DNA from: Cymbomonas tetramitiformis
Taxonomy: Eukaryota; Chlorophyta; Pyramimonadophyceae; Pyramimonadales; Pyramimonadaceae
Length of the DNA stretch: 64,000 nt
Reading direction: 5' to 3'
Assembly (NCBI GenBank): GCA_001247695.2
Contig: LGRX02025776.1
Coordinates: 1-64,000, forward strand
In this document: positions 58,991 through 64,000 of the stretch, one piece after another
Numbering within the stretch: position 1 is the stretch's first letter
How the letters are laid out: each line of letters begins with the position of its first letter
The notes under the pieces: model-generated
Told to the model about the DNA's origin: nothing
The model's input: the letters and a program-made list of their open reading frames with translations, nothing else
The model's database searches: none
Made by a program: the position numbers and the translations under genes

Positions 58991-61900
58991 ATGGAAGAGC
59001 GAGCGAGGAAGCGTTTTCGCCCGTCACGATGCGTATACGTTGCTCTGATCTTGTTCAGTCTGCATCTAGCAGAAGGTGCAAAAATGCGAGAGTGCCCGAA
59101 AGAAGAACCATTTAACGGCGACCATCACGCCCGAAACCTTCCCAAAGGACAGGTTCCCGGGGAGAACCAGGACGTAACTTTCCATAACTCGCTTGCAGAT
59201 GACGTGTCGCTTTTCTGGGTGAGACCAAACACTGGTGTAGAGATGCTTGCAGCTATGATAGCAGCTGGTACATCCGAGGAGCATCACTCACACGTAGGCC
59301 ATATTTTCCGAGCCCGCGACGAGGGAGGAATGCTGATTCAAGAAGTCGTAGTCACCAAGCCTGACCGTGGTGCATTCCGGGCTACGGTATGCCTCTTGCT
59401 AGGAGCAGAATGCTCCGCTTTGACTGTGCTACGATATCCTTGTACTATATCGAGGGAAAATTGTTGGGTACAGGGTGGCGGCGGTGTGTAATACTCCACA
59501 CAGTTCATCGCGATCGTTGATATGCTAACAAATGGCCGTGTTAGCACAAGTTTACGATGCAAAGTGGTCTTATGCAAGTTTCGAGTGATATGCGGACCTC
59601 GTCACAACCTTCTCGTTGCGTCACTGTAATGCACACAGTGTGTGTAACTTGTTTAAGGGCTTCAACTTAAATCCTGAAAAGGTGGAAAGTAAGTCGACGT
59701 GCAGTTTCTGTAAAGGTCAACAGTTTCTTATTTCCTTTTTTTCCCCTACAGATAACTCCTTGCGGCGAGAGCGAAAAAGCATCGTTGCCCGCGTGCCCAG
59801 ATGAAATCATCAACCTTCGTTCGAAAGCAGGCCAACCCAATCCCGCGGAAGTGACGTTCAAAAACGACTTAGCCGAGGATGTAAATATCTACTGGATGAC
59901 TGACAATGGTATCGAGTCGTTTAGGAACGCAGTCGAACCGAATGGAGAAAGTATTCATAATAGTCATATTGGACACGCTTTCCGTGTGCGCACGGGCTCG
60001 ACCGGGGCTTTGGTGCACGTCGTCACGGTTAACAAAGCCAAAATGACGGTCTACTTGGCGCCGTGCGCAGAGGGTTCGTGCACCTCCTATCTTAGCTGCC
60101 CGCCCAAGCATGAATGCACTTCCCTGCTGCTGCAAGGACCATGTGGTTTGCCCGAACCTGCGCCTCTGTTTCGAATTCAAGGCAGTTACAGGTTGACCGG
60201 CTGCGAAGCGCTCGCTGTTTGTGCTGTTCTGTTCCACTCACGGAGCATCGCTAAAAGGCACCCGACCTCAGTCCTTGCGAATTCCATAAATCCCGAGCGG
60301 ATGCTTCATCATTTTCTCGAGGATAATGGCTCGCGTACTTTGCGGATGCAGGTAAAGACTCGAAGCTTGTTACAGACGAGCAGGTAGCAGGAATCAAGAA
60401 ACTAATTCATCCTGAGAACAGGAAGTGTGAACCTCCGGAAGACTCGACTCTTTGGAGTTGTATCCGGCCGACCTCTTTTCAACGGCCCCGGAGGGATCGG
60501 TGGGGTTTTCAGCCTAGCGACAAGATGCCAGGCAACGTATTATACAAGACCGCCGATGACACATATGTTGCCCACATTCCGAAGATGCCGAAAATTAGCA
60601 AAGGACCTGGTATTGGTCTCGTCGATTAACTTCTGTATCTGCGCCAGCGTCTATGACGTGCTAGCGCTTTACCACTGCTGCACCCACTCGCCCCGTAACT
60701 CACCTTCCTGTCTTCGCGAGTATGTTTGCCTCTAGATTGCGTCATCGGTTTACCGCTTGCCGCTTTGACGTTGCAAGGACAGAACGAGGCTCCCGTTCTT
60801 TCCATGGCCGTATCTTCCGCGCTTCTGACGCCAGCGGGTCGCTTATGACGCCGGGAACTGGCCGGCCGGTGCGCCCAGGTTGGCTGAAGATGGATATGCC
60901 GGACGGCTTAGCGGAATTCCTCAAGAATTTCTGGGATAAGGAGAAGGTGCGAGCCACTCTCTCCTTTGGGGAGTTGCTCACGATTGTGACTTTTCCTGTC
61001 CGAAAGACCTTTGTTTAGCTCCTCTCACTTCGAAGTGAGCCATTTGCATCCCTGCGTGAGCTCGAGTGTGACCAGGTTATGCCTGCGTGGAGCAGGGTAG
61101 ATCCCTCGTGCGCCACGAGTCGATCGGTGGTGGATACACGAATCAAGAGGTGGTTCCGATGGACAAGGTAGACCTAGACTTCTTCACACCGACGCGTTTC
61201 GAGATCGTGAAGAAGATGCGGCCCATCCTACAGTGGTGGACCAATCGTAGGTGGGTGTATAAGCGCACCTGCTTGTGTTCTGCACCCTTTATCTTCCTGC
61301 GGCACTAAAACCTCAAACACCTGAAAGCCGCAAACGCTCTCTTACGGCAGCCGCCCTCTCTCAGTGCCACGTGGCGGGTCCCCGCGACACTACAGGCATA
61401 TCACAGTGGTGCTCGCGTGAGCGGCTTGCCCGTGCAGGTTGGTGCACACTGCTACATACGGCTTGAGGATTTACAGGAGAGACAGCATGTTGCTCACACA
61501 CGTGGATCGTGCTGAAACCCATCTTGCCAGTGCTATCCTGCAGATCGACCAAAAGTCAGATGAAGGCTGGCCCCTTGAGGTATGTGCACGGCTGCGATCA
61601 GCAGGTGTACTTGTCACTTCCTTTATGCCATGACGGGACAGTTATCCTGCTGCTGATTTCTGACAAAGGGGAATCATGGCGGAAAGTGGAGTGATGCATT
61701 TTCTGGCCAAGTGGATTACAGGGCGGCGGAAGCTGAAGGCCATAAAAGCTGTTTTGAAATATGTTGCAAATTCTTAAGCCTTGAAGTCAATCAGGAGCTG
61801 GTTGGTGGCTAATTTGGGTCTGTGTGGGAGACGCTCATGGGGAGCAGGTGCTGACCCCCGCTGGAGATCCGTTTGAAGTCTTCTTAAGGGCGGGCGAGAT

Positions 61901-62021
61901 GCTCCTCTACGAAGGTGGAAGAATTCGGCACGGTCGCCCAGCTCGCTACAATGGGTCTGAATTCGTCAATGTCTTCACCCACTTCTGCCCCTTGGACTGG
62001 CAAGGGCCAAACAAGTACTGA
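58991..62021 (+). CDS. Secreted prolyl 4-hydroxylase with two N-terminal VHL-like beta domains
   Basis: Predicted exons: 58,991-59,386, 59,752-60,073, 60,352-60,609, one ending at 60,946, 61,120-61,250, 61,438-61,579, and a last one to the stop at 62,019-62,021. Start MEERARKRFRPSRCVYVALI leads into a hydrophobic signal or anchor ending LHLAEGA. VHL-like domain 1 has VTFHNSLADDVSLFWV and HSHVGHIFRARD. Domain 2 has VTFKNDLAEDVNIYWM and NSHIGHAFRVR. The first intron is supported because removing it gives ATITPCGES at the end of domain 1, parallel to VYLAPCAEG in domain 2. Catalytic part: RPTSFQRPRRDRWGFQ, GGYTNQEVVPMDKVDL, then YGLRIYRRDSMLLTHVDRAE with the Fe-binding His-x-Asp, and RIRHGRPARYNGSEFVNVF with the distal His and following Arg. 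Junction phases at 60,946/61,120 and 61,250/61,438 agree; the start of exon 4 and the last acceptor are unresolved. Family role: hydroxylation of peptidyl proline in the ER, using O2, 2-oxoglutarate and Fe(II). Confidence 0.75.
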
Positions 62022-63075: not shown

Positions 63076-63482
63076 CATATGACTACATCCACGACTCAGA
63101 TATGATGAGAGTGATAACGGCCAATTTTCAACTATTGCATATCGCGCAGTTTTTGGGTGGGACACCGGCTATCATATCACATTAGGTCTTGGAAACTACA
63201 AAGTAACATGCAGAAGCCCAATATGACCTGAGAACTTACATTTTCGTCAAATCAAAAATCACAAAAAATGGAAATATCATGAAAACCGGCATTTTTTTGT
63301 TTATTTTGGGCCCCAGTCATCCAACGGATGGCGGAAAATGTAGGGAAACCAACCCGCGAAGGGACTTATTTTTAACATGCACTATCGACTGGAACTCGTG
63401 GGTACCATGAAAATGCCCCGAGACGCCCATTATCAGCTCACCACTATAATCATCATATCTGAGTCGTGGATGTAGTCATATG
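63076..63482. mobile_element. MITE with 33-bp perfect inverted ends
   Basis: Arms 63,076-63,108 (CATATGACTACATCCACGAC...) and 63,450-63,482 are perfect inverted repeats; similarity continues a little outward (gatcg). The interior is AT-rich and non-coding. No target duplication was established. Confidence 0.75.
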
Positions 63483-63689: not shown

Positions 63690-64000
63690 GCGGGGCGGGC
63701 GGGAGTGCCCCACGGTACCACCATAACGCGCGCGGGGCGAGCGGGAGTGCCCCACGATACCACCATAACGCGCGCGGGTCGGGTGGGAGTGCCCCACGAT
63801 ACGTGCCCTGTGATACCACCATCACGCTCGCGGGGCGGGCAGGAGTGCCCCACGAGACCACCATCGCGCGCATGGGGCGGGCGGGAGTGTCCCACGATAC
63901 CACCATCGCGCGCGTGGGGCGGGCGGGAGTGTCCCACGATACCGCCATCACGGGCGCGGACTAGTCACGCAAGGATGGTGGGGGTGGGAGTGCCCCGCGC
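63690..64000. repeat. 42-bp GC-rich minisatellite at the right edge
   Basis: GGGAGTGCCCCACGATACCA recurs at about 63,701, 63,743, 63,785, 63,841, 63,883 and 63,925, mostly 42 bp apart with one 56-bp unit. Open frames on the minus strand over this stretch are repeat artefacts. Confidence 0.85.

Follow-up and report, generated by a model that had tools for sequence, protein, structure and literature searches.

A fused VHL-like and oxygenase gene

The window analysed here, the whole 64,000-nt stretch of Cymbomonas tetramitiformis contig LGRX02025776.1, carries on its forward strand a gene (58991..62021) encoding two tandem VHL-like domains followed by an oxygenase domain. Seven exons, running from an ATG at 58991 to a stop codon ending at 62021, specify a protein of 504 amino acids (aa). 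That this VHL-VHL-oxygenase architecture is genuine we regard as close to certain. An earlier reading of the DNA letters without database searches (the sequence-only reading) had proposed it together with a function, proline hydroxylation guided by hydroxyproline binding; as a whole, that interpretation is partly supported.

A relative denoted P0001 (473 aa, 96% identical to the window protein; three contigs, the longest of 1,922 nt) has an open reading frame (ORF) that crosses all six exon junctions without a break; the VHL-like and oxygenase exons therefore form one product, in agreement with the single transcript originally proposed. Because the 1,422-nt ORF plus introns of the size found in the window (about 1.5 kb in total) would exceed 1,922 nt, we infer that P0001 derives from cDNA. 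The nearest public record, gene model CYMTET_38820 (P0002) of C. tetramitiformis, a green alga of the Pyramimonadophyceae, lacks part of exon 3, with the conserved WSC linker in it; P0001 retains this part. The C-terminus ...GPNKY is common to the window protein, P0001 and P0002.

A family profile made from 28 domains of relatives, with P0001 and P0002 excluded, detected both VHL-like domains, the first (residues 57-142) at 59.4 bits and the second (residues 157-244) at 70.6 bits; the highest domain score reported for 2,000 shuffles of residues 1-250 of the window protein was 5.8. In a Protein Data Bank (PDB) search at E<=10, 24 of the 25 distinct sequences matched by the family's profile were VHL, which argues against membership in an unrelated beta-sandwich family. 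The Pfam VHL cut-off (21) was passed by P0003 (21.6) and P0009 (22.5) among eight relatives scanned, and a Pfam VHL match at E<=0.01 was obtained for 6 of 36 family members. The 504-aa window protein had no Pfam match of any kind at E<=10, and neither had P0001; a Pfam scan of the single-exon ORFs of the window found neither domain. A six-frame Pfam VHL search of the genome from which the window comes gave no match, with control genomes equally empty, so that this search is uninformative about absence. The sequence relationship to the VHL beta domain (PF01847) holds by way of the relatives and the family profile, and the VHL beta-sandwich fold is present in the predicted structures, domain 1 having been modelled from exon 1, without its final strand. 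For the VHL alpha domain, which binds elongin C and cullin, Pfam gave no match at E<=10 with either the window protein or the eight relatives; in the predicted model, the stretch from VHL domain 2 to the oxygenase contains a single helix of at least four residues (217-224). The tandem beta domains and the missing alpha domain had both been recognised in the sequence-only reading, and these searches agree with both. A VHL-motif-like string near 60.8 kb, considered as a third repeat, was rejected, as it falls within intron sequence separating exon 3 from exon 4 and P0001 does not contain it.

Coordinates of the coding region, exons and domain features in the window
Feature	Position	Strand	Description
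Complete VHL-VHL-oxygenase coding region	58991..62021	+	7 exons, 504 aa plus stop
Exon 1	58991-59386	+	Hydrophobic, signal-like N-terminus (residues 15-26), Cys-Pro and the bulk of VHL-like domain 1; predicted model m39e049f4de32
VHL-like domain 1	59159..59386, ending in exon 2 at 59781	+	Residues 57-142
VHL-like domain 1, Trp88-, Ser111- and His115-equivalents	59216, 59288, 59300	+	
Exon 2	59752-60073	+	Final strand of VHL-like domain 1, then nearly all of domain 2
VHL-like domain 2	from 59824, exon 2	+	Residues 157-244
VHL-like domain 2, Trp88-, Ser111- and His115-equivalents	59893, 59962, 59974	+	
Exon 3	60352-60609	+	Cys-containing linker (C...WSC); oxygenase region begins (IPKMPK at 60576)
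Exon 4	60879-60946	+	N-terminal part of oxygenase domain
Exon 5	61096-61250	+	Oxygenase domain
Exon 6	61438-61579	+	Oxygenase core, HxD metal motif, His421 codon at 61499
Exon 7	61848-62021	+	Oxygenase core, distal His475 in HGRP (codon at 61929), C-terminus ...GPNKY, stop

Downstream of the gene lies a perfect 33-nt inverted repeat (63076-63108 / 63450-63482) with arms 341 nt apart; it looks like a small non-autonomous transposon resembling miniature inverted-repeat transposable elements (MITE-like). Positions 63690-63959 hold a GC-rich tandem repeat with a unit of about 42 nt and longer periods of 98 and 140 nt.

Eukaryotic, bacterial and viral relatives

Three homology searches, in which every query contained VHL domains and candidates were length-limited (the third scored the best 7,999 candidates by shared words), yielded 116 proteins in total. 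At least one VHL-like domain is present in 94 of them, a share that, because queries and candidates were biased in this way, is no measure of how often the oxygenase lacks VHL in nature. The 22 homologues without such a domain are 193-388 aa long, and many are apparently truncated at the N-terminus. Named members include Prorocentrum cordatum, Noctiluca scintillans, Pelagophyceae sp. CCMP2097 and an Aureoumbra record; sought in other algae and protists, the architecture is found in its one-VHL form in other single-celled eukaryotes and is not peculiar to Cymbomonas. Two VHL copies in one chain are unusual, as had been suspected, occurring in 4 of the 116 homologues (P0001, P0002, P0012 and P0015). 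A tree was built from 89 VHL-like domains, restricted to long ones and without P0002; it has few columns and many weak forks. In it, the two Cymbomonas-type domains pair (99/85), with P0030 nested between them; P0012 and P0015 share a different duplication, their first domains grouping at 98/90 and their second at 100/94. Judging from this tree, the VHL domain was likely duplicated twice independently.

Tandem proteins of Gammaproteobacteria (Bowmanella, Marinibactrum, Granulosicoccus and others) contain a second domain homologous to the catalytic domain described here, with 29-42% identity in the best segments across 12 bacterial loci and the HxD...H motif in all 12. The first domain of these tandems is 2OG-FeII_Oxy_3, of the prolyl 4-hydroxylase (P4H) type, whereas in the alga this place is taken by VHL. 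A P4H-type domain followed by the catalytic-domain homologue was observed at loci L001, L002, L003, L006, L009 and L010. In the three bacterial relatives scanned, the other domain matched PF13640, and the shared domain matched PF13661 below cut-off; PKHD models matched the shared domain, below cut-off, in one of two bacterial relatives. L003 appears to bear a PqqD-like insert, which would hint at peptide modification. The ORFs around L006, the sole bacterial neighbourhood listed, gave no clue to the substrate.

A scan of IMG/VR returned five viral stretches with a pattern, none of them confirmed as a relative. Phage records include a 2-oxoglutarate (2OG)-Fe(II) oxygenase of cyanophage S-SCSM1 (two accessions), corresponding to the oxygenase part only; among viral models, the best match by fold is likewise the protein of this phage. 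The phage families PHROGs 2954 and 3531, labelled 'ferrochelatase', match the oxygenase domain of P0001, P0008, P0029 and L002 (best E 2.5e-21, for L002), and this label is probably wrong.

A possible hydroxyproline-docking oxygenase

We put at roughly two in five, for the full chain of inference, the probability that the window protein is an endomembrane 2OG/Fe(II)-type protein oxygenase with VHL beta domains serving as hydroxyproline-docking modules. The oxygenase would sit in the endomembrane system, most likely in the lumen of the endoplasmic reticulum (ER), and the VHL domains would bind hydroxyproline, or proline-rich segments holding it, via the Trp88/Ser111/His115 pocket. The tethered oxygenase would then oxidise residues close to the point of docking, probably prolines or hydroxyprolines; a first hydroxylation would thereby recruit further ones, and the second VHL copy in Cymbomonas would give higher avidity towards substrates with repeats. 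In this scheme, the docking, the nature of the substrate and the processivity are inferred.

The features of the family fit the ER lumen. The C-terminus is EL or DL in 102 of the 116 homologues, compared with about 1% expected from composition, and has the strict form [KRHQSA][DENQ]EL in 46; the N-terminus is hydrophobic in 64 of the 76 homologues with room for such a stretch, and a Cys follows the VHL domain in all 91 domains covering that position. The family is apparently ER-resident, and the secretory route read earlier from the N-terminal signal is likely. The window protein itself has a hydrophobic N-terminus if translation begins at 58991, a start for which the evidence consists of the open frame, the hydrophobic stretch and the habit of relatives.

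The VHL pocket is formed by Trp88, Tyr98, His110, Ser111, His115 and Trp117, with Ser111 and His115 bonding the hydroxyl of hydroxyproline and Tyr98 its carbonyl (excerpted text of PMC9528729). Equivalents of Trp88, Ser111 and His115 are present in both window domains; the Ser and His of the SxxGH motif, the strand Trp and the replacement of the later Trp by Phe are as the sequence-only reading had reported. Counted over 96 family domains (the two of P0002 omitted as near-copies of those of P0001), Trp88 is present in 91 of 92, position 111 is Ser or Thr in 93 of 96 and His115 is kept in 94 of 96; positions 98, 107 and 110 are far more variable than 111 and 115. The corresponding figures in a 36-member alignment are 30/31 for Trp88, 30/32 for Ser/Thr111, 31/32 for His115, 31/32 for Phe117 and 0/31 for Tyr98. 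One early count, in which domain picking had preselected His and an aromatic residue at 115/117, was not used for those positions. With Trp88, Ser111 and His115 kept and Tyr98 lost, the pocket retains the half that binds the hydroxyl and is without the carbonyl-binding Tyr; this half-pocket permits hydroxyproline binding and is not proof of it.

An oxygenase with HxD and a distal His had been read after the VHL domains, and HxD...HGR is indeed found in the window protein and in 115 of the 116 homologues. The predicted structure, a double-stranded beta-helix with HxD...H metal ligands, places the domain in the 2OG-Fe(II) oxygenase superfamily, and by predicted-structure comparison the fold is of the P4H/PHD2/BesD type. 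Arg at His+2 (36 of 36 members) and Arg at His+5 (112 of 115 eukaryotic rows, 0 of 12 bacterial rows) are candidate 2OG contacts only; the rows of the bacterial-comparison alignment were chosen by HGR, so the invariant Arg at His+2 is there by construction.

Several observations weigh against the docking-oxygenase interpretation. The start at 58991 is backed neither by P0001, the first residue of which is Met32 of the 504-aa model, leaving residues 1-31 with the signal-like stretch outside its support, nor by CYMTET_38820, which begins 31 residues later, also at Met32. A KDEL-like tail is missing from the Cymbomonas protein, and a Cys stands just ahead of the VHL domain in only 37 of 76 cases. 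In the pocket, position 117 (Trp in VHL) is Phe in 88 and Tyr in 3 of the 96 domains, Tyr98 occurs in none of the 92 domains covering that position, and Asn67 and Arg69 are not conserved, so that the window domains, without Tyr98 and with Phe for Trp117, do not present the full Trp88/Tyr98/Ser111/His115/Trp117 set. Some of the conservation in the pocket may reflect structure, and the domains were gathered by profile, which favours conserved ones. The proposed hydroxyproline reading would have Trp88, Ser111 and His115 to draw on, without Tyr98 and without the Trp117 already noted as replaced.

In the catalytic domain, PHD2 and P4H bind 2OG via Lys or Arg at distal His+9/+10. Among the eukaryotic rows, Lys or Arg is so rare at these positions (8 of 115 at His+9, 3 of 115 at His+10; 4 of 12 at each in the bacterial rows; Glu at His+10 in the window protein) that 2OG binding must differ from that of P4H. 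None of the 36 members matched a Pfam 2OG family at E<=0.01, the P4H-type profile (PF13640 / 2OG-FeII_Oxy_3) included, and when the canonical P4H domains of six bacterial tandems were compared with the catalytic profile by profile-profile alignment (hhalign), no meaningful alignment resulted, one side holding only six sequences. At the sequence level, the oxygenase forms a family separate from P4H/PHD2; the designation 'prolyl 4-hydroxylase', with which the fold agrees, is supported neither by the profile matches nor by the 2OG-binding residues.

The loss of Tyr98, the change of Trp117 to Phe and the unconserved Asn67 and Arg69 would be readily explained if the VHL-like domains were beta-sandwiches that bind a substrate or partner without reading hydroxyproline, the Trp/Ser/His cluster being mostly structural or serving another ligand. 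A common fold is no demonstration of function, and we consider this alternative only somewhat less probable than the docking oxygenase; against it, the side-chain hydroxyl at 111 and His115 are kept almost throughout, in contrast to the far greater variation at positions 98, 107 and 110. A non-prolyl target of the oxygenase, such as lysine, some other side chain or a molecule that is not a peptide, with VHL only positioning a partner, is unlikely, as the VHL-type partner in eukaryotes and the P4H-type partner in bacteria both favour prolyl chemistry. A more specific variant of the docking-oxygenase interpretation is somewhat less likely again: VHL-type domains in the ER of algae and other protists would read a first hydroxylation set by an ordinary P4H, and the oxygenase, representing a new subfamily, would add a second oxidation to the same or a neighbouring residue (yielding, for example, dihydroxyproline), in a hydroxyproline-primed, self-reinforcing manner. 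If true, this would place VHL-type hydroxyproline reading outside animal HIF (hypoxia-inducible factor) signalling, in the secretory pathway, and the bacterial tandems of a P4H-type domain and the same second oxygenase would be a two-step enzyme without a reader. An artefactual merger of neighbouring VHL-like and oxygenase genes, to which the lack of Pfam matches in the window protein and the public model's shortened exon 3 lend some colour, is highly improbable given the unbroken ORF of P0001 and the same fusion in the 94 VHL-containing homologues.

Comparison with known systems and implications

The beta domain (PF01847) is common to animal VHL and the algal protein, which differs in lacking Tyr98, in having Phe for Trp117, in its duplicated VHL domain and fused oxygenase, in the absence of a visible alpha domain and in its apparently lumenal location. 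With prolyl 4-hydroxylases and PHD2 it shares the superfamily fold; here, Lys/Arg at His+9/+10 is not conserved, and HGR is present in 115 of 116 homologues. Collagen P4H likewise has a separate domain that binds proline-rich peptides (PSB) beside the catalytic one, of the TPR type and not VHL. According to the available sections of PMC12433258, the PSB domain also binds a hydroxyproline-containing peptide, its role in processive or hold-and-modify action is unsettled, and, as a difference from the algal protein, the enzyme is an alpha2beta2 tetramer with protein disulfide isomerase (PDI). In the HIF-VHL-PHD pathway, too, a VHL-type reader is paired with a hydroxylase-type writer; these are separate proteins, with the reader in an E3 ligase (excerpted text of PMC9618697), whereas the alga combines both in one chain with no visible E3 part.

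Choanoflagellates lacked VHL according to earlier work cited in PMC9618697, which in its available part reports a VHL homologue in Salpingoeca rosetta. VHL is treated within the HIF pathway, or as derived from it, in the available parts of PMC9618697, PMC5800844 and PMC13223302, and is not mentioned in PMC2824669. In literature on VHL with hydroxylases and on dihydroxyproline, no description of a VHL-oxygenase fusion was found among the matches listed, which comprise titles and the beginnings of abstracts, with most subscription journals outside the coverage.

In animal oxygen sensing, VHL is known as the protein that reads hydroxyproline; how far it extends beyond animals is unsettled. The family described here provides a second setting for the VHL fold, beside a hydroxylase-like domain and with no visible ubiquitin-ligase part, and turns the question of whether hydroxyproline reading predates HIF into a testable one. 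A hydroxyproline-binding module within an oxygenase would be a clean system for the idea that additional binding domains let prolyl hydroxylases work processively or hold and modify a substrate. Oxygen-dependent protein marks may be both read and written by a single molecule.
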